This document shows positions 1 through 28,275 of a stretch of DNA of 36,352 nucleotides, in pieces. Every line of letters starts with the position of its first letter. Within the stretch, counting starts at the first letter, position 1. This stretch comes from Chlamydiota bacterium (GTDB lineage Bacteria; Chlamydiota; Chlamydiia; Chlamydiales; Rhabdochlamydiaceae): contig JAKEHU010000021.1 of the NCBI GenBank assembly GCA_022614855.1, positions 1-36,352 on the forward strand, given 5' to 3'. Position numbers and translations under genes: made by a program. Below the pieces are notes generated by a model, which worked only from the letters and a program-made list of their open reading frames with translations, was not told where the DNA came from and searched no databases.

Positions 1-101
1 CTTGGCCTACTTAATTTAAGTATGTCCTGCGAAATGTCTTTAAAATCTGTGAAGAAAATTCACCAAAAATCAAATTTTCTGAATTATCGGATAGGTTCAT
101 G
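1..101 (+). repeat. Structured repeat, right half (copy A), cut by window edge
   Basis: This is the right-hand half of the dispersed repeat seen complete at 6386-6549 and 27330-27494. It shares the loop segment TTGGCCTACTTA, the apical hairpin TACTTAATTTAAGTA, the right inner arm GAAATGTCTTTAA and the terminal GGATAGGTTCATG. The left half would lie before position 1. The final ATG is the start codon of the J-domain gene at 99. Confidence 0.85.
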
Positions 102-1550
102 TCTATATCAAAATTTTTCCTTGAAAAGTACTGTTTAGGCTCAAATTGGCTTTATCCTTCTAATTATCGTGAATATATAATGGAATGGGATAAGGGCGGA
201 AAAGGAATATCGATAAATGACTCAATAGAAAGTGTCATAAATAATAATCTCACTGAGCGCATTTTTTACAATTGCAGAGAAAAAGGGTGGGGCCATACTA
301 TTGGAAAACCTTTCCGCGCTATTGCAAGACTCATTTTTTATTACGTCATTGGAACTTTTTTTTCTCCTTTCGGAATTATAAAAAATACAGCGCAAACAGT
401 TTATCATGGAATTGAATACCTTAAAAAATCAGCTGCAATTTATAGAAAAAAAGTCAGAGAATCTTCTTGGCAAAAATTGACCTATTTTTCCCAGGCCCTT
501 GTGATAGATATTTTTTTCTCCTTGATCTTTGGCATTGTTCCAAATGCAATGCTTTTAAAAGTCGTTAAACCTGACATTATTCGGGCTATCTGGTCAAAAT
601 TTAATGAAGAGACGAAAGGCTATGCAATGGCCACCACAATTGGTGCAATAGGACTCTGGCTTTGTCTGAGCTTTAACCCTAATTTCGCCACTGATTTTTG
701 TCATCCAGATGAACAAACTGCGTTATTAAAAGCAATATGGCTAAAAAATCAATTTGGACTTACAGGGCCAAGAGGAAGTCTTTTACCATATGATAAGGTA
801 AATGATGCTCAAGAACACGGTGAAAAATCCCCCTTTTTTGGTCTCTTACTCAATACAGAGTTTGATTTAATTGAAAAGATGGAAAAAACATGGAAAATTT
901 TAAATGTAAAGGATGAAAAGCAAGCTAAAGATTTTAACTATTTACTAAAAGCTTTTAAAAGCTATCTTATAGACAATCCAAAAAATACAGAACATTTAGA
1001 AGTTTTCAATAGTCTTAAAAATTTGGTCCGCACGTATACTCAGCTTAAAAATTTGCGAAAAGAAGGTTTTTACAAACAATTTAAAATATACCGAGAACTT
1101 CCAAAATTCTATCAACAATCTTTACTGAATGATAAATTTTCTCATCAGGCCCAAGATTTCAAAACCAAGCCCTCTCCTCAAGCTCACAACGATATTCTCA
1201 ATGAGAGCATTAAACGTCTAACTGAAAATTTCAATTCAACATACAAAAATTGCCAGAATGTTTTAGTAAATTATAGAAATCAAGAAGATTCTTTATTCAA
1301 AACAGAGGAAGCAAAAAGGTTCTTTTTCAAAGCAGAAAATGGCCACGAAGTGATTACATTGTTTGGATTACGAGACAACTTTACTCTTGATGAGCTTAAA
1401 AAAGCATATAAGAAATTATCAATTGTTTTGCACCCCGATAAATATATAGATGAGCAAGCAATACTATTAGCTAACGAATTATTTAAATTATTAGGAGCGG
1501 CATATTCTTATCTTGAAAAGTTAAGAGCTCTAAAATCTTTAAAAAATTGA
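99..1550 (+). CDS. Membrane-associated J-domain (DnaJ-like) protein
   Basis: A 483-residue protein ending in a J domain at about residues 415-480. The HPD tripeptide that stimulates the DnaK ATPase is at 445-447, inside VLHPDKY, and is followed by a typical helix IV region. The J domain is C-terminal, and there is no G/F-rich linker, zinc-finger region or DnaJ C-terminal domain, so this is a type III J-protein that may recruit DnaK to one place or client. Hydrophobic stretches near 72-95, 131-155 and 175-192 suggest membrane anchoring in the N-terminal half. The middle (200-400) is charged and probably helical, and I do not recognise it. The start ATG is the last three bases of the structured repeat, and no other upstream start is visible. 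The 3' end overlaps the converging acylphosphatase gene by 12 bp. The J domain is certain; the role is unknown. Confidence 0.85.
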   Translation: MSISKFFLEKYCLGSNWLYPSNYREYIMEWDKGGKGISINDSIESVINNNLTERIFYNCREKGWGHTIGKPFRAIARLIFYYVIGTFFSPFGIIKNTAQTVYHGIEYLKKSAAIYRKKVRESSWQKLTYFSQALVIDIFFSLIFGIVPNAMLLKVVKPDIIRAIWSKFNEETKGYAMATTIGAIGLWLCLSFNPNFATDFCHPDEQTALLKAIWLKNQFGLTGPRGSLLPYDKVNDAQEHGEKSPFFGLLLNTEFDLIEKMEKTWKILNVKDEKQAKDFNYLLKAFKSYLIDNPKNTEHLEVFNSLKNLVRTYTQLKNLRKEGFYKQFKIYRELPKFYQQSLLNDKFSHQAQDFKTKPSPQAHNDILNESIKRLTENFNSTYKNCQNVLVNYRNQEDSLFKTEEAKRFFFKAENGHEVITLFGLRDNFTLDELKKAYKKLSIVLHPDKYIDEQAILLANELFKLLGAAYSYLEKLRALKSLKN

Positions 1551-5810: not shown

Positions 5811-5821
5811 TCTTTTTTTAT

Positions 5822-5980
5822 TTAAACCACAGAGCTCACAGAGAGAGGAAGTCCGGATTCTAATTTTTTTCTCTGCGACCTCTGGACCTATCTCAATAAA
5901 ATTTTCAATGAGATTTCGAGAAATTTTGAGGCAGATTTTCTAAATTTTTTTGAGATAGGTTCCTATGTTCTCTGTGGTAG
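5822..5980. repeat. ACCACAGAG-type inverted repeat (family R, copy 1)
   Basis: The left arm TTAAACCACAGAGCTCACAG (5822 on) and the right arm TTCTCTGTGGT (5968-5978) form an inverted pair. A degenerate third arm (CTCTGCGACCTCTGG, 5871-5885) lies between them. The shorter derivative of the structured repeat (5885-5962) sits inside. Related arms occur at 16226-16344 and 27262-27285. The whole unit fills the space between ygfA and the small exported protein gene. Confidence 0.75.
5885..5962. repeat. Short structured-repeat derivative (copy F)
   Basis: An inverted repeat of about 78 bp: ACCTATCTCAATAAAAT on the left pairs with AAATTTTTTTGAGATAGGT on the right. Both ends keep the ACCTAT/ATAGGT core of the larger repeat, but in place of the usual CCG they carry TCTC and GAGA, changed on both sides so that pairing is kept. 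It lacks the inner stem and apical loop. It could act as a terminator-like hairpin after ygfA. Confidence 0.6.
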
Positions 5981-5982
5981 AC

Positions 5983-6387
5983 CTATTCTGAATTTTGATC
6001 GCCATTTTGCCCGTTTTGCCCCTCCTTTTTTTTCTTAACGGGTTTGCAAATGCGCGCTCCTTCACCACTAGATGCAGTTACAGTTCCACCAGTGGACACA
6101 TTGACGTTGATAGAATAATCATCTCCATTTTGGCAAGTCCAAAGCACAGTGTAGGGGGTTTGAGAGCGGGATGGCCCAGGACCACTATACATTCCAAATT
6201 GCTGATAATTATCAGACCAAGAACTAAAATTGCTGGGTTTCAACTCAACTGACCCAAGTTTTGTTCCATCTGATCCTTGAATTACAGCCACTAAAGTATA
6301 GGGACTATCATTGAAGAGGCGAACCATTCCGCAAAAAAGAGGAAGGGGAAGGATTAAAAGAAAAAGGAAAAATTTAGATAGAGACAT
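5983..6387 (-). CDS. Small exported protein of unknown function
   Basis: A 134-residue protein that I do not recognise. A signal peptide is clear (MSLSKFFLFLLILPLPLFCG). The mature part is about 90 residues and rich in Ser, Gly and Tyr, with strand-like patterns (VRLFNDSPYTLVAVIQG, DDYSINVNVSTGGTV). Two cysteines, in WTCQNG and RICKP, could form a disulfide. The tail is low-complexity: four lysines, then repeats of Gly, Gln, Asn and Asp. The start is the ATG at the edge of the structured repeat (6385-6387). The open frame continues upstream through the repeat to 6549, but that part would disrupt the signal peptide. The first 24 coding bases closely resemble the start of the J-domain gene at 99, which follows another copy of the same repeat. 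Confidence 0.72.
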   Translation of the reverse strand: MSLSKFFLFLLILPLPLFCGMVRLFNDSPYTLVAVIQGSDGTKLGSVELKPSNFSSWSDNYQQFGMYSGPGPSRSQTPYTVLWTCQNGDDYSINVNVSTGGTVTASSGEGARICKPVKKKKEGQNGQNGDQNSE

Positions 6388-6549
6388 GAACCTACCCCGA
6401 AATTCGGAAACTTGATTTTTAGTGAATTTTTGCACAGATCTTAGAGTCATTTCGCAGGACATACTTGAATAAGTAGACCAAGAAATGACTCTAAGATATG
6501 AGGAAAAAGACACAAAAAGCAGGTTTTTTGAATTTCGGGGTAGGTTCAT
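6386..6549. repeat. Full structured repeat (copy B), 164 bp
   Basis: A complete copy. The terminal inverted repeats ATGAACCTACCCCGAAATTC and its complement lie at the two ends. A perfect 15 bp inner stem pairs TCTTAGAGTCATTTC (6439-6453) with 6482-6496. The loop between holds a third hairpin, TACTTGAATAAGTA (6462-6475). It lies between the 3' end of oppA (10 bp away) and the start of the small exported protein gene, and supplies that gene's ATG. Confidence 0.92.
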
Positions 6550-9157: not shown

Positions 9158-9178
9158 ATCAAACCTTTGGGAGTAAGT

Positions 9179-10384
9179 ATGAATTTGGATATGATAAAAT
9201 TATGGCCCGTAGCTGCCATATCCCTTGTTGCTTTTTCTACTGGCTTAAGCGCTGCAAAAAAATACAATGAAAAATGTCCCATCAAACCTATCGGCGGACC
9301 TGATTTCATTGTCAACCCTTCTGTAAGACCTCTTTCCAGCGACCCATGTTGCTGCGACTCAGGAGAATTTTACGTCACAGCATCAGCTTTTTACTGGAAC
9401 GCTCATCAGGATGGCATGGAATATGCAGTTTTAAATGAACGGGTAGATACCCAATATCAAGGAACATTATTCAAAGCGAAGTACATCAACCCCGACTTTA
9501 AATGGAGATGGGGTTTCAAAGTTGGTTTAGGGTATAACTCCACTCATGATGGCTGGGATGTAGAAGCTCTTTGGACCCATTATAAAGGAAAAGCTTCAAG
9601 ACATGATGATACAGCTAGCGCTCAAGGTACAACTTTACTACCACTATGGTCTGATTTTGCACCAGCAGTTGCAAATCCTGTAGGAGCAGTAGCAACACAA
9701 GGTATTTTGTTTGCTACCGATATTAAATCTAGTTGGAAACTCAAACTTGATATCGCTGATTTTGTCCTTGGTCGTCAATTTTGGACAAGCAAATATTTCA
9801 ACATGAGACCTTTCATTGGACTCAGAGCTGCTTGGATCCGTCAAGATTTTGAAATCGAACACAGAGGTGGAAGTTGGAGCGGTACTTTTAACCAAGGTAA
9901 CGTATTCAATAATGAGGTTGAACTAGATAATGATTACAAGGGCGTGGGAGTTCGAGGCGGACTTGATGGCGCTTGGAATTTTAACAAATCGTGGGGACTT
10001 TTTGGAAGTCTTGCAGCATCTATTCTTTATGGAAGATTTGATATTGACCATGAAGAAGAAAATCGATTTGCCAATGCTCCATTCAATAAAGTAAAAATTC
10101 TCGATACAAGTGATAGTTTTAGAGCCCCAAGAGCAATTCTCGACCTATTCATTGGCATTCAATACACTACTATCTTCAATGATCGGTATGGCTTTATCGC
10201 CACTTTAGGATGGGAACACCACCACTTCTTCAACCAAAACCAGATGTGGAGAGTTGTGAGAATTGGGGATGCATCAACAACTGCGGGTGCAGTTACTGAT
10301 CAATTCGGCGAAAACGTATTTGATCAAAGACGTGGAGATTTAAGTACTCAGGGTTGGACACTTTCACTTCTAGTCACATTCTAA
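9179..10384 (+). CDS. MOMP-like outer membrane porin 1
   Basis: A 401-residue outer membrane beta-barrel of the kind expanded in environmental chlamydiae (MOMP-like). A signal peptide runs to about residue 26 (VAAISLVAFSTGLSA). The mature N-terminus has a lone Cys (EKCP) and a CCC triplet in SDPCCCDSGEFYV; no cysteine is visible in the rest. The barrel shows alternating aromatic strands such as FYVTASAFYWNAHQDGMEYA, FKWRWGFKVGLGYNS and DVEALWTHYKGKAS, and ends in LSLLVTF with the C-terminal Phe expected for BAM-dependent insertion. The start is the ATG at 9179, preceded by GGGAG; an in-frame TTG at 9167 is part of the leader. A paralogue of identical length follows at 10607. Expected role: structural porin and diffusion channel. 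Confidence 0.88.
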   Translation: MNLDMIKLWPVAAISLVAFSTGLSAAKKYNEKCPIKPIGGPDFIVNPSVRPLSSDPCCCDSGEFYVTASAFYWNAHQDGMEYAVLNERVDTQYQGTLFKAKYINPDFKWRWGFKVGLGYNSTHDGWDVEALWTHYKGKASRHDDTASAQGTTLLPLWSDFAPAVANPVGAVATQGILFATDIKSSWKLKLDIADFVLGRQFWTSKYFNMRPFIGLRAAWIRQDFEIEHRGGSWSGTFNQGNVFNNEVELDNDYKGVGVRGGLDGAWNFNKSWGLFGSLAASILYGRFDIDHEEENRFANAPFNKVKILDTSDSFRAPRAILDLFIGIQYTTIFNDRYGFIATLGWEHHHFFNQNQMWRVVRIGDASTTAGAVTDQFGENVFDQRRGDLSTQGWTLSLLVTF

Positions 10385-10565: not shown

Positions 10566-10606
10566 AAGATGTCATAAATTTGCTTTTTAAAACCCTGGGA
10601 GTAAAT

Positions 10607-11812
10607 ATGAATCAAGATATAAAAAAGATATGGCCTTTAGCCGCTATATCTATTGTTGTAGCTTCATCAACAATGAGTGCTGCAAGAAAAAGTCACGAAC
10701 AATGCCCTCCAAGAGCGATCGATGGGCCAAATCAAATGGTCAACCCACCCGTAAGACCTTATACTAGCGATCCATGCTGCTGTGAGGCGGGAGAAGTGTA
10801 CCTTACAGCATCTGCTCTTTATTGGAACACCCATCAAGATGGGATGGAGTATGCAGTTTTAAATGAACGAGCAGATACCCAATATCAAGGGCTCGTTGTC
10901 AACGCAAAATACCTCAACCCTGATTTTAAATGGAGATGGGGCTGGAAAGTGGGCATTGGTTATAATTCAACACATGATGGCTGGAATATGGAAGCCATTT
11001 GGACTCATTATAAAGGAAGAGCTTCAAGACATGATGATACTGGTGGTTCTTCAAGCACTACTCTCCTTCCACTCTGGTCTGCTTTTGCACCTGCAGTTGC
11101 AAATCCAGTTGGTGCAGTAGCAACACAGGGTATTTTGTTTGCTACAGATATTGAAGCTAGCTGGAAATTGAGACTTGACATTGCCGATTTCACTTTGGGA
11201 CGTCAATTCTGGACTAGCAAATTTTTCAATATGAAACCTTTCATTGGAATTAGAGCTGCTTGGATTCGCCAAGATTTTGAAATTGAACACAAAGGGGGAA
11301 GCTGGGGCGCCACCTTTAACCAAGGTAACGTATTTAATAATGAAGTTGATCTAGACAATCATTACAAAGGAGTTGGTGTTCGTGCGGGGATCGACAGTAG
11401 CTGGAATTTCACAAAAGCATGGTCGCTTTTTGGAAATTTTGCTCTTTCCATTCTCTATGGAAGATTCGATATCGAACATGACGAAAGAAATTTTTTCGCA
11501 AATGCTCCATTCAATAGAAACAAAATTCACGAGACAAGTGACGGCTTTAGAGCTTCTAAAGCAATCCTCGACCTCATGATTGGAATCCAGTATGTCACTG
11601 TATTTTCCGATTACCGAGCTTTCATGGTAAGCTTAGGATGGGAACACCACCTATTCTTCAACCAAAACCAGTTGTGGAGAGTTGTGAGAATTGGAGATGC
11701 ATCAACAACTGCGGGTGCAGTTACTGATCAATTCGGCGAAAACGTATTCCATCAAAGACGTGGAGATTTAAGTACACAAGGTTGGACTTTAACCGCAACT
11801 TACGTCTTCTAA
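10607..11812 (+). CDS. MOMP-like outer membrane porin 2
   Basis: A 401-residue paralogue of the preceding gene, colinear along its whole length: signal peptide, EQCP, the CCC triplet in SDPCCCEAGEVYL, the same strand pattern, and a C-terminal Phe (TLTATYVF). The four cysteines are at the same places and none appears in the barrel. Differences are spread along the protein (for example FFANAPFNRNK against RFANAPFNKVK), but a segment near the 3' end is almost identical in DNA. GGGAG precedes the ATG at 10607. Each copy has its own promoter-like sequence and terminator, so they can be expressed separately. Alternative porins with different loops are a likely reason for keeping both; substrate selectivity cannot be read from the sequence. 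Confidence 0.88.
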   Translation: MNQDIKKIWPLAAISIVVASSTMSAARKSHEQCPPRAIDGPNQMVNPPVRPYTSDPCCCEAGEVYLTASALYWNTHQDGMEYAVLNERADTQYQGLVVNAKYLNPDFKWRWGWKVGIGYNSTHDGWNMEAIWTHYKGRASRHDDTGGSSSTTLLPLWSAFAPAVANPVGAVATQGILFATDIEASWKLRLDIADFTLGRQFWTSKFFNMKPFIGIRAAWIRQDFEIEHKGGSWGATFNQGNVFNNEVDLDNHYKGVGVRAGIDSSWNFTKAWSLFGNFALSILYGRFDIEHDERNFFANAPFNRNKIHETSDGFRASKAILDLMIGIQYVTVFSDYRAFMVSLGWEHHLFFNQNQLWRVVRIGDASTTAGAVTDQFGENVFHQRRGDLSTQGWTLTATYVF

Positions 11813-11937: not shown

Positions 11938-14604
11938 TTATTTTCTAAATTCATCGATGAGATTTGCAACAAGACAGCTCCAAGATTGATGGCTTGCACC
12001 AAGTCCTTTTCCTGTTTCTGGATTGTAATATTCATGGAAAAGTAGAAATTCAGACCAGTTTTCATCTTCATGAAAGGGAAAATCCTCTCCAAAAACCGGT
12101 CTTTTTCCCCTATTTTTTCTAAAAATCGAGATGATTCGATCGGCATAGGAGTTAGCAATCTGGGAGAGGGTGGCCGTTTCTTCATCTCCAATCTGAATTT
12201 GAATCCGGTCCTCAAAAGCTTGACTAAACTTTTTTAAAGCTTGAATTAACAAAAATGTGGTTGGAATCCAGACAGGTCCTCTCCAATTTGAGTTTCCTCC
12301 CTTTATCTTTTCTAGAGACTCATTTGGCTCATACTTCACTTGGTTGTTTTCAAACGAAAAGGGGGTTTTTTCATGAAAGCGAGAAAGACTCCTGAGGCCA
12401 AAAGCTCCTCTAAATTCTTTAGGATCCCAAAGGTATTGAACTACTCTTTTCAACTGATCTTCATTCATAAGAGCAAGGACATAATACTTCTCCTTATTTT
12501 TAAAAGTGGTGAGGATGCATGGATCGACAAGATCTTTTCTATTCTGCAAAAACCAGATAAAATTTTTCTTAAATTCTGGGAATTGATCGATCCTCTTTTC
12601 ACTTAAAATTTCCACAGCGTAAAGGGGAATTAACCCCACCAGAGATCTCACACGAAATTCTTTGAAACTCCCATTTGGATACCCCAAAACATCGTAAAAA
12701 AATCCATCCTCCTCATTCCACATTTCAAAGTTTTGATTTCCCCTCTTTTTCATGGCATGTGCAATGTAGACATAGTGTTCAAAAAATTTGGTCGCAAGGG
12801 ATTCATAAACCCGATCTTTTTCCGCAAGTTCCAGGGCAATTGTCATTAAATTTAGACAAAACATCGCCATCCAGCCTGTACCATCCGATTGCTCCAAAAT
12901 GACATTGCCTGGTAGCCTCTTCGATCTATCGATGACGGTGATATTGTCGAGGCCTAAAAAACCCCCTTCAAAGACATTATTCCCTAAATTATCTACCCGA
13001 TTGACCCACCAGGCAAAGTTGATTAAGAGTTTATGAAAACACTTTTCAAGAAAGACTCTATCAGCTTTTCCAAGCTGATTTTTTTCTCTGAGATAAAGAT
13101 TCAAAGCAGCCCAAGCTTGGACTGGAGGATTTAAATCGGAAAACTCCCATTCATATGCTGGAATTTGTCCATTGGGATGTTGAAATTGGTCAAAAAGAAG
13201 AAGCCACAACTGCTCTTTGGCATACTCAATATCAACAAGAGAGTAGGTCAGACAGTGAAAAGCTAAATCCCATGAAGCAAACCAGGGATATTCCCATTTA
13301 TCAGGCATGAGCAAGACGCGCATGGAATTGAGATGTTTCCAATGAACATTGCGAAGATAGTTTCTAGAATTCGGAGGGGGAAAGTTAGGATTATCCCCTT
13401 TTAGCCAAACATTGACATCATAAAGGTAAATTTGCTTATTCCAAATAAGCGTTGCTAAAGCCTGCCTTTGAATATTTTTTTCCTCATTTGTTGCCTTCTT
13501 TGGATGAATTGCAGAAAAAAATCGATCCGCTTCCTCTTTTCTTTTATCGATTATTTTTTCAACCTCTTTTAGGGGTTTTGCGATCTTCTTATTTGAAAAT
13601 CGAAAAAATTTTTTCACAGATCCATGAGGTGGAATATCTCTTAAGAAGTAGGTTAAACATGCTTTAGTTCCCTCTTCTTTGGGGTTACATCGATTTTCTC
13701 CATGGATAATTTTTCGATGAAACCCATCTTTATAAAACTTGTTCCTTTCGCTTCCATTGGTCTCATTTTCAGTAAACATCCATTCTCCATCTGACTCTCC
13801 ATAGAGAAACTGTTTTCCCAATCGGTATTCAAAGGAAAGATTTTTAGGAGAAGGGGCCTTAGTATCATCAGAAGTAATAGAGATCCAACTTTTTGTTTTC
13901 TCTCCTTTTTGAATCATGGGTTTGGAAATGTTGTTAAACCAGGACCACTGGTTGCGAAACCAGAGTTGCATCAATAAATGTAAAGAGGCTGGATCTTTAC
14001 TTCGATTAAAGATTTCTATTTTGATACAGAGATCTTCGGGATCATTTTTTGCATATTCGATAAAAATATCGAAATAGCGTCCTTCCTGAAACACTCCTGT
14101 ATCCATCAATTCATATTCTCTTTGATCGATTCTTCTCTTGTGATTTTCTTCGACCAGTTTTTGATAGGGAAACGGGTCTTGAGGGTATTTGTATAGATAT
14201 TTCATGTAGGAATGGGTGGGTGTTGCATCGATCTGGTAGGAATATTCCTTCACATCTTCCCCATGATTTCCCTCATGAGAGTTAAGCCCAAATAGCCGCT
14301 CTTTTAATATCGGATCTATTCCATTCCAAAAGGCGGGTGCTAAAACAAGAACTTGGTAGCGATCAGACCAGCCGCAAATTGCATCTTCTCCCCACCTGTA
14401 TGCTTTTGCAGCGGCCAAATCATGGGGAAAATAGGACCACGAATCGCCATTTGCGCTATAATCTTCTCTAACCGTTCCCCAAGCTCTTTCAGAAACATAT
14501 GGTCCCCATTTTTGCCACCTTGGAACAAGATCTTCTTTTCCTTCAGCAAGCCTATGAGATTCTTCAGAAATTCTCTTTGCTTCTTTAGATCTTTTTTCTA
14601 GCAT
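11938..14604 (-). CDS. GH63-family glycoside hydrolase, copy 1
   Basis: An 888-residue protein of the long bacterial GH63 group, relatives of mannosyl-oligosaccharide glucosidase. The N-terminal signature is WGPYVSERAWGTVREDYS, then FPHDLAAAKAYRWGEDAICG and GLNSHEGNHGEDVKEY. In the C-terminal (alpha/alpha)6 barrel the proposed acid is Asp at about 446 in SWDLAFHC, the proposed base Glu at about 858 in HEYYNPETG, with NWRGPVW and GLGASHQSW nearby. It probably inverts and releases glucose from an alpha-glucoside; the substrate is unknown. There is no signal peptide, so it should be cytoplasmic. I prefer the ATG at 14604, which has GGGAG upstream and overlaps glk by 20 bp. The frame opens earlier (14637) without a ribosome-binding site. 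Coupling to glk suggests freed glucose is phosphorylated at once. Confidence 0.88.
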   Translation of the reverse strand: MLEKRSKEAKRISEESHRLAEGKEDLVPRWQKWGPYVSERAWGTVREDYSANGDSWSYFPHDLAAAKAYRWGEDAICGWSDRYQVLVLAPAFWNGIDPILKERLFGLNSHEGNHGEDVKEYSYQIDATPTHSYMKYLYKYPQDPFPYQKLVEENHKRRIDQREYELMDTGVFQEGRYFDIFIEYAKNDPEDLCIKIEIFNRSKDPASLHLLMQLWFRNQWSWFNNISKPMIQKGEKTKSWISITSDDTKAPSPKNLSFEYRLGKQFLYGESDGEWMFTENETNGSERNKFYKDGFHRKIIHGENRCNPKEEGTKACLTYFLRDIPPHGSVKKFFRFSNKKIAKPLKEVEKIIDKRKEEADRFFSAIHPKKATNEEKNIQRQALATLIWNKQIYLYDVNVWLKGDNPNFPPPNSRNYLRNVHWKHLNSMRVLLMPDKWEYPWFASWDLAFHCLTYSLVDIEYAKEQLWLLLFDQFQHPNGQIPAYEWEFSDLNPPVQAWAALNLYLREKNQLGKADRVFLEKCFHKLLINFAWWVNRVDNLGNNVFEGGFLGLDNITVIDRSKRLPGNVILEQSDGTGWMAMFCLNLMTIALELAEKDRVYESLATKFFEHYVYIAHAMKKRGNQNFEMWNEEDGFFYDVLGYPNGSFKEFRVRSLVGLIPLYAVEILSEKRIDQFPEFKKNFIWFLQNRKDLVDPCILTTFKNKEKYYVLALMNEDQLKRVVQYLWDPKEFRGAFGLRSLSRFHEKTPFSFENNQVKYEPNESLEKIKGGNSNWRGPVWIPTTFLLIQALKKFSQAFEDRIQIQIGDEETATLSQIANSYADRIISIFRKNRGKRPVFGEDFPFHEDENWSEFLLFHEYYNPETGKGLGASHQSWSCLVANLIDEFRK

Positions 14605-15547
14605 AGCTTGCTGCTCCCAAAAGAGCGGTACTTTCATTTAGAATGATCTTTACGGGAATTTCCTGTAAAAAAGATTGAAACCTTCCCTTATCTACAAACC
14701 TTTTCATGAATTGACTTTGCATCAACACTTCTTGCATTTTTGGAGCAATTCCCCCACCGATATAGACGCCAGATATGGCAAACATTTTTAGAGCTAAATT
14801 TCCCGCCTCACTTCCATAAATTTCGGAAAATATTCTTGAAGATTTAACACAAGTTGGACAGGATTTTTTTTTTGAAAACTCGGTGATCAAATGAGGAGCT
14901 ATTCCCTTTGCAAAAGCTCTTTCCACTTCCTGGTTTTTTTCTTCTTTTTTTACCTGGGTCAAAAATCGGTAAATTTGTTCTAGTCCATTTCCAGATAAAA
15001 TCCTTTCATAAGATACATGTCCATATTTTTGCATCAAAAAGGAGAGAAGTTCGATTTCTATTTGATTTTCTGGAGCAAAACTAGAGTGGCCCCCTTCTGT
15101 TGCAAAGGGGTGGAATCTTTCTCCATCCCAAAAAATTCCTGCCTCTCCTAAACCGGTACCAGCTGAAATGATTGCACCATTGCCCTTAGCCCTTTTTCCA
15201 GGATTCAATACTAAAAACTCCTCCTCTTCCAATTCTTCGATTCCATAACCATTTGCCTCAAGATCATTGATGAGCCATACATTCTTGATACCAAGTTGTT
15301 TTTTCAATGTTTTTTCATCTATTTTCCACGGTAGGTTTGTCGCTTTGCACTCTCCATTTTTTACAGGGCCTGCAACGCCGAAACAAGCAGAGTGGATTTT
15401 CACATCATGAGACGAGAGAAAATCGATGGCAATTTCACCTAAACTTTCATAATTTGAACTTTTATAGACCTTTTCTACAACGATCTTATCATTTTCAAAA
15501 AAGGCAAGCCTAGCATTTGTTCCACCAATATCTCCTGCTAAAATCAT
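14585..15547 (-). CDS. glk: Glucokinase
   Basis: A 320-residue glucokinase of the proteobacterial type (PF02685), which phosphorylates glucose with ATP to glucose 6-phosphate. The phosphate-binding motif GDIGGTNARLAFF is at the N-terminus (residues 5-17). Next come CFGVAGPVKNGECKATNLPW and the LINDLEANGYGI segment, whose Asp is the catalytic base, then SAGTGLGEAGI for adenosine binding and the substrate-binding EGGHSSFAP. The C-terminal GVYIGGGIAPK is also typical. The start is ATG 15547, with a second ATG two codons upstream (15553); both lie in the end of a half-copy of the structured repeat. It overlaps the GH63 gene downstream by 20 bp. Classical Chlamydia take up glucose 6-phosphate and lack glucokinase, so this gene points to a lineage that uses free glucose. 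Confidence 0.94.
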   Translation of the reverse strand: MILAGDIGGTNARLAFFENDKIVVEKVYKSSNYESLGEIAIDFLSSHDVKIHSACFGVAGPVKNGECKATNLPWKIDEKTLKKQLGIKNVWLINDLEANGYGIEELEEEEFLVLNPGKRAKGNGAIISAGTGLGEAGIFWDGERFHPFATEGGHSSFAPENQIEIELLSFLMQKYGHVSYERILSGNGLEQIYRFLTQVKKEEKNQEVERAFAKGIAPHLITEFSKKKSCPTCVKSSRIFSEIYGSEAGNLALKMFAISGVYIGGGIAPKMQEVLMQSQFMKRFVDKGRFQSFLQEIPVKIILNESTALLGAASYARKKI

Positions 15548-15630
15548 GAACATATCCGGAAATTAAAAAAATTTGATTTTTGTGCCTTTTTTCCCCATAT
15601 CTTAGAGCCATTTCTTGGCCTACTTAATTT
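15545..15630. repeat. Structured repeat, half copy (copy C1)
   Basis: It begins with CATGAACATATCCGGAAATT and continues through CATATCTTAGAGCCATTTC and TTGGCCTACTTAATTT, matching one half of the full copies, then similarity stops. The outward-reading end gives TGTTCATG, where the ATG is the glk start. The rest of 15554-15816 holds only this piece, about 65 bases without visible features, and the short copy at 15698. Confidence 0.75.
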
Positions 15631-15697: not shown

Positions 15698-15763
15698 TGA
15701 ACCTATCCCGAAATTCAAAAAACCTGCTTTTTGATAAATTTTCTTAATTTCGGGATAGGTTCT
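15698..15763. repeat. Short structured-repeat derivative (copy C2)
   Basis: GAACCTATCCCGAAATT (15699-15715) pairs perfectly over 17 bp with 15746-15762. The interior AAAAAACCTGCTTTTTGA matches the left flank of the full repeats, but the inner stem-loop is missing. It lies about 50 bp before the small exported protein gene at 15817. Confidence 0.82.
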
Positions 15764-16217: not shown

Positions 16218-16225
16218 ATCCTATT

Positions 16226-16344
16226 TCTCTTTCTCTGTGCGCTCTGTGATCTCTGTGGTAATAATCCTCGTTTGAATATTGCTGGCCATAATTGTTTGGA
16301 CTTTTTTTATTTTACCACAGAGAGTACAGAGGAGACAGAGATAT
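16226..16344. repeat. ACCACAGAG-type inverted repeat (family R, copy 2)
   Basis: The left arm CTCTGTGATCTCTGTGGTA (ending 16260) and the right arm TACCACAGAGAGTACAGAG (16313 on) are inverted relatives of the arms at 5822 and 27262. The arms enclose about 50 bases (16261-16312) with no other visible content. The element occupies most of the 239-base gap before recA. Confidence 0.75.
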
Positions 16345-19510: not shown

Positions 19511-19563
19511 GAATCTATTCAGAAATTCAAAAAAGCAGTTTTTCTAAGTTTTCGGATAGGTTC
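19511..19563. repeat. Short structured-repeat derivative (copy D)
   Basis: GAATCTATTCAGAAATTC at the left and CTAAGTTTTCGGATAGGTTC at the right are degenerate ends of the structured repeat, joined by AAAAAAGCAGTTTTT, which keeps the flank pattern of the full copies. The inner stem is missing. It ends four bases before the ung start codon. Confidence 0.7.
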
Positions 19564-25312: not shown

Positions 25313-27216
25313 GATACATTAAATAGGGAATGAAGTGATTTTTCTTCCCTTTCTTTTTTCAGTGTAGTCAAAAAGGAATTAAGATCAAATTCTCCAATAA
25401 CGCGATCTCTTGTTCGCAGATTAATGGTCTTTTTTTCTACTTCTTGATCTCCAACAGTGAGCATGTAATTGATTTGAGCAAGCTGCGCATCTCTAATTTT
25501 TCTGCTTACTGATTCATGAGAACCATCTACATCAGAAATAAAACCTGCTTTGGAAATTTGGTTAGAAATTTTTTCTGCATAGTCGACATGTCGATCAGCA
25601 ACCGGAATCAATCGAACTTGATGGGGGCTAAGCCACAATGGAAATCGGCCAGCAAAATGTTCGATCAAAATTCCCAAAAACCGTTCAATCGATCCGTAAA
25701 TAGCACGGTGAATCATCACAGGTCTTTTTGCAATCCCATCTGAATCGATATATTCGAGTTCGAATTTTTCAGGAAGAGCCATATCGAGTTGAATGGTTCC
25801 ACATTGCCAAGATCTATTCAGCGCATCTTTGATGTGAATCTCAATCTTTGGACCATAAAACGCTCCTTCTCCTTCTATAATTTGATATTCTTCTCCCCAT
25901 TCATCTAGAGCTTCTCTCAGACCATTTGTAGCAATTTCCCAATCTTTATCGGATCCAATGCTTTTTTCAGGTCGTGTTGCAAGCTTAAATGTGTAAGTCA
26001 ATCCAAAAGCGCCATAGAGTTTTTTTACTAGATTAAGAATATTGATAATTTCATTTTTAATATCTTGCGGACGCATGAAAAGATGGGCGTCATCTTGATG
26101 AAAACTGCGAACGCGGACAAGACCGCTCAATGCTCCTGATGGTTCATGTCGATGTACGTGGCCAAACTCTGCAATTCTTAAGGGAAGTTGTCGATAGCTT
26201 ACAGTATGGGATTTATAGTAGAGCATGCAGCCAGGACAATTCATCGGTTTGATTGCGAAATGGCGATTTTCAATTTCAAAGGCATACATGTGTTCACGGT
26301 ATACTTGCCAATGGCCCGATCGCTCCCAAAGTTCTTGACTCATGAGTTGCGGGGTTTGGATTTCTACATATCCTGCCTCGAGTTGGAGACAGCGCAAAAA
26401 GTTGACCAAATGGTTCCAGATGATCATTCCTTTTGGGTGGATAAAAGCCATTCCGGGGGCCTCTTCTTTTATAGAAAAGAGGTCGAGCTTAGGTCCCAAA
26501 ATCTTATGATCTCGTTTTTTTGCCTCCTCTAGTAAATCCAAATATTCTTTAAGCAATTTTCTATCTGGAAAAGAGATGCCGTAAATACGCGTGAGCATTT
26601 CTCGATTTTTGTCTCCTCTCCAATAGGCGCCGGAAGTTTTCATGATTTTAAATGCTTTGATTTTTCCTAAATTGGGAAGATGGGGCCCGCGACAAAGGTC
26701 AAAAAACTCCCCTTGAGAATATCCAGAGATTGAGCCTTCAAATTCTCTGATCATTTCGCATTTGTAAGGATTATCTTTAAATCTTTCTAATGCTTCCTTT
26801 TTATCTTTAAATTCGACCCTTTTTGAAACATAGTTTTCCTTTAAAATATTTTGCACCTCTTTTTCGATTTTCTCTAAATCGGCTTCTGTAATGTGCAAGT
26901 TGGCAAAATCGTAATAAAATCCATTTTCAATGGGTGGACCAATTGTGGGTTTTGCATCCGGCCAAAGCCGTAAAATGGCTTGAGCCAGGACATGCGCAGA
27001 AGTGTGCCAAAAAATCTCTTTTCCCAGGGGGTCGTCAAAACTAACAAAGGAAACGCGATCTTCCTCAGAAAGAGGAGAAGAGAGATCTTTTAAAACTCCA
27101 TTTATCAAAACAGCAAGGGCCTGATCAGGGTTTCGCAAATTGTTTTTTTCTGCGAGATCTTTTGCTGTACGTCCTTGTGGCATTGGTATTTTCTGGTCCT
27201 TGTAATAAATATGCAT
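25309..27216 (-). CDS. thrS: Threonyl-tRNA synthetase
   Basis: A 635-residue class II synthetase that charges tRNA-Thr. It has the full bacterial domain order: an N-terminal TGS domain (1-60), the editing domain with HTSAH at about 71-75 and FFDLCRGPH with the editing Cys near 175, the catalytic core with KPMNCPGC near 323-330 (zinc Cys), [17 protein letters not shown] (motif 2), and the anticodon-binding domain from about 530. I chose the ATG at 27216 (MHIYYKDQ), which begins the TGS domain and gives the usual length. The open frame extends to 27276, but that 20-residue addition has no counterpart in the family. It heads the minus-strand series thrS-parA-gp6D-GH63. Confidence 0.97.
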
Positions 27217-27261
27217 ACTTCTATTAATGAGTCTTAATTCTAACGAAAATTTAAATTTAAT

Positions 27262-27285
27262 TAAACCACAGAGCACACAGAGAAA
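27262..27285. repeat. ACCACAGAG-type repeat arm (family R, copy 3)
   Basis: TTAAACCACAGAGCACACAG, then AGAAA, is almost the same as the left arm at 5822. Here it is a single arm with no visible partner. It lies in the thrS leader region, 46 bases before the start codon. Confidence 0.65.
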
Positions 27286-27329: not shown

Positions 27330-27494
27330 ATGAACCTATCCGTAAATTCTAAAACCTGCTTTTCATATCTTTTTCATTATATTTTCATGCCACTTCTTGA
27401 CCTACTTATCCAAGTATGTCCTTCGAAGCGGCATAAAAATCTGATAAAAAAATCTCACAAAAATCAAATTTTTAGAATTTGCGGATAGGTTCAT
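27330..27494. repeat. Full structured repeat (copy E), 165 bp
   Basis: A complete copy with ends ATGAACCTATCCGTAAATTC and the near-perfect complement at 27471-27494. The inner stem (27381-27396 with 27425-27440) is different in sequence from that of copy B but still pairs over 16 positions with two wobble-type exceptions. The apical hairpin is TACTTATCCAAGTA (27403-27416). The right end supplies the ATG of the next gene. Confidence 0.92.
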
Positions 27495-28275
27495 GAAATT
27501 TTTTACACACCTCGTTTGGTTTGTCTTATGCACTAGTAAAGTCTTTGGCCTCTACTTTTCTAATCCTTTGGAGCCGGATTTGGTCGATCAAGGATTTTTT
27601 ATTCCAAAAGATTTTTTTTTGGGATTGAAAGCGGGATATCAGAGAGACATGGTTTTGGATCGAAAACTTCGAGTAAAATCAGGAGTAGTGAAGGGGCGTG
27701 TTGATGAATTTCAATTCCTCATGGATCAAGGAGTAATCACCCTCAATTTTCTCAATCGTTTGGAAACCTATGGCTCTTTGGGATCGATGAATGCATTTGT
27801 TCGCCATCGACCACATGTAGATCATCGCATACGAGAATATCAAACAAGCGATCATTTAACCTGGGGAGTGGGAGGAAGGCTTCTTCTTTTCAATTGGGAA
27901 TCTGCTACTTTTGGAATCGATGGGAAATATCAGAGGGGTTACCCTCATGTAAAATGGAATTCAATCGGCGGAGAAGCTTTTTCAACAGGGGCGAGACTTC
28001 TTTATCGGGAATGGCAAGTTGGATTTGGTGTTTCTTATGAAATTGATTTTCTTATCCCATATGCTGCATTTACCTATTCTAGTGCTCGTGCAACGATGAA
28101 AAAAGTAAAACCAAACATGCAACTTGGCACATCTCGTTTTACGATGAAAAGTCGAGAATTTTTTGGACTCTGTCTTGGATTTTCTCTTACTCCAGGGAAA
28201 TATTTTGATATTAACGTGGAAACGCAGCTTTTTTCTGAGCAGGGATATACCTTATCTGGTAATCTCAAATTTTAA
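27493..28275 (+). CDS. Outer membrane beta-barrel protein, MOMP-related
   Basis: A 260-residue predicted outer membrane protein. It has a signal peptide (about 1-19, ending VFG) and then LYFSNPLEPDLVDQGFFIP, which recalls the mature start of chlamydial MOMP (NPAEPSL...). After that come alternating amphipathic strands (ATFGIDGKYQRGY, RLLYREWQVGFGVSYEI, REFFGLCLGFSLTPGKYF). It ends in LSGNLKF with the C-terminal Phe expected of BAM substrates. At about 240 mature residues it is much shorter than the two 401-residue porins and is not a simple truncation of them. The ATG is part of the repeat end GGTTCATG, with only AGG as a weak ribosome-binding site. A second barrel gene follows after 73 bp. 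The barrel is well supported; porin activity is inferred. Confidence 0.75.
   Translation: MKFFTHLVWFVLCTSKVFGLYFSNPLEPDLVDQGFFIPKDFFLGLKAGYQRDMVLDRKLRVKSGVVKGRVDEFQFLMDQGVITLNFLNRLETYGSLGSMNAFVRHRPHVDHRIREYQTSDHLTWGVGGRLLLFNWESATFGIDGKYQRGYPHVKWNSIGGEAFSTGARLLYREWQVGFGVSYEIDFLIPYAAFTYSSARATMKKVKPNMQLGTSRFTMKSREFFGLCLGFSLTPGKYFDINVETQLFSEQGYTLSGNLKF

Follow-up and report, generated by a model that had tools for sequence, protein, structure and literature searches.

A chlamydial MITE found at gene starts is probably tolerated within start codons by translation through the element and reinitiation

The window analysed here is a stretch of 36,352 nucleotides of a Chlamydiota bacterium, corresponding to contig C23 of a genome of 1.507 Mb in 44 contigs (G000; other G numbers denote other genomes, and L numbers loci). 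It carries copies of a palindromic GAACC…GGTTC repeat, whose ends coincide with the starts of open reading frames (ORFs). The element in front of the outer membrane protein gene is listed first, followed by the other copies and the genes beside them.

27330-27331, no strand: far copy of the AT duplication, reading ATG with the first G of the element
27332-27492, plus strand: full-length 161-nt element, GAACC...GGTTC, right end facing the outer membrane protein gene
27330-27488, plus strand: through-element ORF of 52 codons and TAG (MNLSVNSKTCFSYLF...IFRICG*), stopping 4 nt before the ATG of the gene
27493-27494, no strand: near copy of the AT duplication, forming the start codon with the G of the gene
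27493-28275, plus strand: gene for a Chlam_OMP-like outer membrane protein, its start at the element end
1-98, plus strand: right part of a copy that the contig edge truncates
99-1550, plus strand: DnaJ-domain gene, starting at the element end
5983-6387, minus strand: gene for a small exported protein, its start at the element end; alternative 188-aa fusion 5983-6549
6388-6547, minus strand: 160-nt copy; the ORF from the far-junction ATG (6549) enters the gene in frame
14585-15547, minus strand: glk, start at 15547, or at 15553 (in-frame ATG from the mutated end)
15548-15626, minus strand: truncated copy, reduced to the gene-side part, with the end mutated to GGATATGTTC
15699-15762, no strand: 64-bp deletion derivative with a TT/TT duplication on either side
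19511-19563, no strand: 53-bp deletion derivative; ung (19568) starts 4 nt after its end

An earlier note on this DNA had placed repeat ends at the starts of the genes at 99, 6387 (minus), 15547 (minus; end reading GGATATGTTCATG) and 27493, with ung starting four nucleotides after a fifth end, and the ORFs confirm each of these positions. Window ORFs start at 99, 6387 (minus), 15547/15553 (minus) and 27493, and GGTTCATG occurs at 94-101 (plus), 6385-6392 (minus) and 27488-27495 (plus); one further match, at 26141, is internal and unrelated. The glk-side end (15545-15557), mutated to GGATATGTTCATG, contains an extra in-frame ATG two codons upstream, giving glk two candidate in-frame ATGs (ATGTTCATG). 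A scan of genome contigs returned no relatives of glk.

The repeat has the ends GAACCTATCCG...CGGATAGGTTC and comprises two main subfamilies and several diverged ones. Its commonest length is 161 nt, and about 100 copies are present in the 1.5-Mb genome. From the fetched stretches we recovered 158 non-redundant ends (up to 2 mismatches; a few are probably chance matches) and joined 54 end pairs into elements; counts that require gene calls are based on the stretches around element ends. Twelve contigs (C4, C5, C6, C11, C15, C16, C23, C33, C36, C38, C39 and C42) end inside or beside near-identical copies, so that the true copy number must be higher and some copies recent. Each element is flanked by a 2-bp target duplication, which is AT in most copies, and the two bases following GGTTC are AT at nearly all ends. 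Four copies carry a different duplication (GT/GT in L110, AA/AA in L088, TT/TT in L061 and TT/TT at 15699-15762 of the window), which rules out the terminal AT as the element's own sequence and places it outside the element, as duplicated target. On the simplest reading, the AT arises by the 2-bp duplication, and the G that completes the codon is that of the gene, the first base past the insertion point. The element had been proposed to end in a ready-made start codon; it does not, as the AT duplication rebuilds the native start codon of the gene.

With terminal inverted repeats, a short body lacking a transposase gene, many copies, a 2-bp target-site duplication and an empty site in relatives, the repeat is by structure a MITE. 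The suggestion that its hairpin would sit in the mRNA is supported by a predicted fold of -62 kcal/mol (z -9.9), with the AGG and the AUG within the stem; the right half by itself folds no better than expected by chance. At the gathering score, Rfam matches in the window are confined to a tRNA, and the element matches no structured RNA family.

A candidate IS5-family autonomous relative is found in other genomes of the order. Genomes G101 and G051 contain an insertion sequence (IS) of 877-888 bp (candidate parent copies L310, L311 and L328) with terminal inverted repeats GAACCTATCC, AT on both sides and two ORFs (PF13340 and PF01609). It is of the two-ORF IS5-family type (DUF4096 and DDE_Tnp_1) and shares the terminal repeat and AT flanks with the MITE, but encodes a transposase, which the MITE lacks. 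The nearest named records of the same-end IS come from Parachlamydiales and Chlamydiia, and ends of the GGATAGNYTCATG type were found by pattern scan in 40 of 148 genomes of the order, the reversed control pattern giving almost no matches. Genome G000 itself has no match to PF01609, PF13358 or PF00665, and a parent transposase carrying one of these domains was rejected for this genome. An IS630/Tc1-type MITE, with TA duplication and DDE_3 transposase, was likewise rejected: AT follows GGTTC directly, G000 lacks PF13358, and the PF13358 loci in relatives have no MITE-type ends. The IS copy at L311 appears to interrupt another transposase gene.

The association with gene starts extends through the whole genome, and the repeat is indeed the mobile or amplified element that the earlier note envisaged. 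At 37 of the 47 element ends followed by ATG in G000, an ORF of at least 100 aa opens exactly there, and the same is true of 24 of the 32 genomic sites of the exact 13-mer GGATAGGTTCATG; both counts lie far beyond chance. Gene starts plotted against the element end show a sharp peak at distance 0, with about one per bp or fewer at 1-40 bp. Exact GGATAGGTTCATG sites include the native starts of rplR, rpsE, rpsD, yebC and murE, and near-perfect ends add rpsS and rplA. Genes at element ends comprise rpsS, rplR, rpsD, rplA, yebC, surE, murE, ftsW and mreB, together with folC, dapB, lspA, psd, menA, plsX, glk and an FtsK-like protein. Long frames also open right at element ends reading ATT or ATA in G019 (L226, 1609, minus; L236, 1669, plus); these may be either rare start codons or starts that have decayed.

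Coincidence or mis-called starts, with the real starts elsewhere, would be the simplest objection, and glk and the gene at 6387 do have alternative in-frame starts. Family models, however, align from residue 1 for rpsS (S19), yebC, rpsD (S4; NF003717) and murE, and universal proteins with a fixed N-terminus (S19, S4, YebC, L18) start exactly at the element. In relatives, a few bases separate the rplB stop from ATGGG at the rplB-rpsS junction. Genome G001 reads AGGAAATAATTATGGGAAGATC, as opposed to AGGAAATAATT-AT-[161 nt]-ATGGGAAGATC in G000, an empty and a filled site; between rplF and rplR, relatives likewise show the empty site. Orthologues without the repeat thus start at the same place in rpsS and rplR, which is the comparison the earlier note had proposed. 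For the conserved genes, mis-calling is refuted by the fixed N-termini and the element-free relatives, and as a general account we give it practically no weight. Judged from the empty sites, the rpsS and rplR insertions sit in native start codons within ribosomal-protein operons. The idea that the element lands in front of genes therefore holds as to position, at gene starts, but the site it enters is an existing native start codon. At L116 (2043-2430), rplR and rpsE of the same ribosomal operon each start directly at an element end; the locus has one full element and one solo end, and the rpsE start follows the solo end. In other genera, different genes were hit: typA, gspE and murD in G024, clpB and cyoB in G019, fabZ in G014 and smpB in G004. 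As the identified genes differ, the insertions in separate genera look independent.

More informative than the AGG is a feature absent from the earlier note, a 52-codon frame ending 4 nt before the rebuilt ATG. The first base of the element is G, so that the far junction also reads ATG, at the former position of the native start and behind the native upstream sequence of the host. In family-1 copies, no stop interrupts the frame from this far ATG (MNLSANSKTCFSYLF...IFRICG) until the TAG in GGA-TAG-GTTC-ATG. In G000, 16 copies have a gene on this side: the stop is at -7 in 12 and forms an ATGA overlap in two, of 162 nt; the frame continues into the gene, in phase, in one (6388-6547) and is disrupted in another (L083). 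The far-ATG frame also occurs in G004 (smpB), G009, G029, G024 (4/4) and G046 (another family), in six of seven cases in G019, including clpB with GTG and cyoB with ATGA, and in G014, where it overlaps fabZ by 7 nt. Nearly all start-located copies thus have an in-phase stop at -7 (TAG GTTC ATG) or an ATGA overlap, as in a translationally coupled leader.

With copy orientation taken from the alignment rather than from the ORF, the frame is open in 49 of 56 copies of 161 nt, against 0-2 of 56 for each of the other five frames, and the terminal stop is present in all 56. Of the start-located 161-nt copies, 25/26 are open. Ten of these, from different genera and two families and with 44-73% mutual identity, include nine with an open frame; under random substitution from the consensus, the chance of neutral openness is 0.06-0.21 for each of the ten, with a product of ~2e-9 that is a rough guide. 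Substitutions are spread evenly over the three codon positions (0.45, 0.43, 0.41). Openness of the frame looks constrained, and the peptide does not: what is kept is the absence of stops, the phase of the length and the terminal stop, matching the prediction of translation through the element. Conservation of the frame across genera might instead point to a functional peptide, the repeats being copies of a small gene. This is very improbable, given the absence of codon-position bias and of a Pfam match, and given inverted repeats, target duplications and an IS with the same ends, which mark a transposable element.

Over all genera, 30 of 66 copies with an open frame are at starts, compared with 2 of 14 closed copies (p 0.027; the copies are related); in G000 alone the association is not significant (p 0.11). 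Genome G022 is a small negative case: all three of its full copies have a closed frame, and gene starts coincide with none of its seven ATG ends. Many intergenic copies also have an open frame.

We propose that an IS5-type MITE survives inside start codons through translation of its body followed by termination and reinitiation, which we consider probable. A non-autonomous element of IS5-family type would insert at (T)AT and duplicate the AT. If this AT is part of a start codon, ATG would result at both junctions, the far one from AT and the element's G, behind the translation-start region of the host, and the near one from AT and the gene's G. Between the two, the element body preserves an uninterrupted frame; it starts at the first ATG and closes with the TAG lying 4 nt ahead of the second one, or, in copies of 162 nt, with a TGA that overlaps the second ATG (ATGA). 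Having entered at the host's own signal, ribosomes would read through the 52-codon insert and unwind the hairpin in which the second ATG is otherwise hidden; terminating next to this ATG, they would restart there by translational coupling. Start-codon insertions would thereby be tolerated even in essential genes, and most other insertions would be lost from the compact genome, making the start-codon excess a survival effect. The element, the duplication, the position at native starts and the conservation of frame, length and stop are all seen in the sequence; translation of the frame and reinitiation are what we infer, and several copies speak against them. Four start-located copies face the opposite way with the gene-side frame closed (L074, L102, L124, L063), and two right-facing ones have a broken frame (L083, L222). 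Furthermore, an SD-like motif precedes only 3 of 16 far junctions and is thus no more frequent there than at the other starts in the genome, although only about a third of those have it.

The end of the element might act by itself as a ribosome-binding site (GGATAGG or AAGGG, then TTC-ATG) or contain an internal promoter, with no need for through-translation. Solo right ends like AAGGGATAGGTTCATG persist just before starts (L114, L103, L123 and rpsE in L116), following an upstream stop codon in L114, L123 and rpsE of L116, and a transcript beginning in the right half would fold weakly. Retention of these ends after deletion suggests that the element end itself also aids initiation; the earlier note had proposed the AGG as a possible short ribosome-binding site. 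In the full-length transcript, however, the AGG and the AUG are buried in the -62 kcal/mol stem, so that the AGG by itself probably does not explain everything. A consensus scan finds no promoter-like site in the right half of the window copy, and the conservation of the 52-codon frame, its phase and the 161-nt length would be left unexplained; as a full account, the end acting alone is doubtful.

Of 33 oriented full copies with an AT duplication, 16 occupy start codons, compared with the 4.4% that oriented intergenic AT sites predict (p ~1e-13). At TAT sites the count is 13 of 25, with 6.7% expected (p ~1e-9), and at sites with G on the right 16 of 20, with 24% expected (p ~2e-7); the expectations use simple greedy ORF calls on element-centred stretches and the copies are related, so these p-values are guides. 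The excess is about 11-fold over intergenic AT and 7.7-fold over TAT. Retention of old copies at starts was dismissed as the cause, since start and non-start copies show no clear difference in divergence.

Active targeting, in which the transposition machinery homes to start codons or their marks (such as RBS-like DNA, or ribosomes initiating on nascent mRNA) and coupling evolved secondarily, would account directly for this excess over intergenic sites and for the sharp peak at distance 0. Many other intergenic sites should suit selection at least equally well, and a 10-fold excess is large for selection alone, which would have to remove most other intergenic insertions; some active targeting is therefore possible. 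Yet non-start copies have a target profile of T-AT only, with no start-like motif and no bias in the base to the right of AT (A6 C4 G6 T5). The 16:4 orientation bias follows from the preference for T on the left of AT; it says nothing on selection, and we dropped it as evidence. Ends of the IS type (G101, G140) lie at starts of ORFs of at least 100 aa in none of 12 cases (one opens a frame of 99 aa), compared with 24 of 32 for the MITE, but an IS inserted in an essential start would be eliminated in any case, and the figure decides for neither side. We think active targeting unlikely, and selection rather than targeting probably lies behind the enrichment. Equally unlikely, in our estimate, is a start-codon-homing element family with an evolved termination-reinitiation leader, shared by dozens of housekeeping genes across a bacterial order; if true, these genes would have a common mobile translational leader, possibly with common control via the hairpin.

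Tolerance of palindromic mobile repeats within genes through an open frame is known from the Rickettsia palindromic elements, which enter coding regions in frame and so add to the length of the protein. In contrast, the present element forms a separate leader ORF and leaves the protein unchanged; only the copy at 6388-6547 fuses in frame. The RUP and BOX repeats of pneumococcus, the Correia elements and MITEAba12 are short AT-rich hairpin MITEs with target duplications that lie near genes (PMC3049150, PMC6382973); MITEAba12 has stops in all six frames, while pneumococcal BOX repeats may carry ORFs. These elements share terminal inverted repeats, hairpin, target duplications and non-autonomy with the present one, but are mostly intergenic, whereas ours lies in start codons with an in-phase frame and a stop beside the rebuilt ATG. 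A mechanism like the proposed coupling is reported for the integron, where translated short ORFs (ORF-11 and ORF-17 of attI1, short attC ORFs) feed the next gene by termination-reinitiation; the TAG stop of ORF-11 lies within the core recombination site, and its peptide sequence hardly matters (PMC8876359). Integron sites are a fixed platform acting on captured cassettes, whereas the present element is dispersed over chromosomal housekeeping genes. In the literature searched, which left out most subscription journals, we found no report of a start-codon habit with a coupled through-ORF.

Where a gene is essential, insertion into its start codon should be lethal, and this family suggests a way round that can be read from the sequence: a duplication that rebuilds ATG on both sides, and a translatable in-phase body. 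Mobile elements would thereby gain a large and permanent set of safe sites and replace the translation leader of many essential genes, a natural experiment on termination-reinitiation in dozens of genes of several genera.

Another short intergenic repeat, ACCACAGAG(C)ACACAGAGA, is unrelated to the MITE and occurs in the window at 5817-5844, 16221-16248 (inverted), 16305-16332 and 27256-27283. Two tandem paralogous genes for outer-membrane-type proteins lie at 9167-10384 and 10580-11812 and are 75-95% identical in parts.
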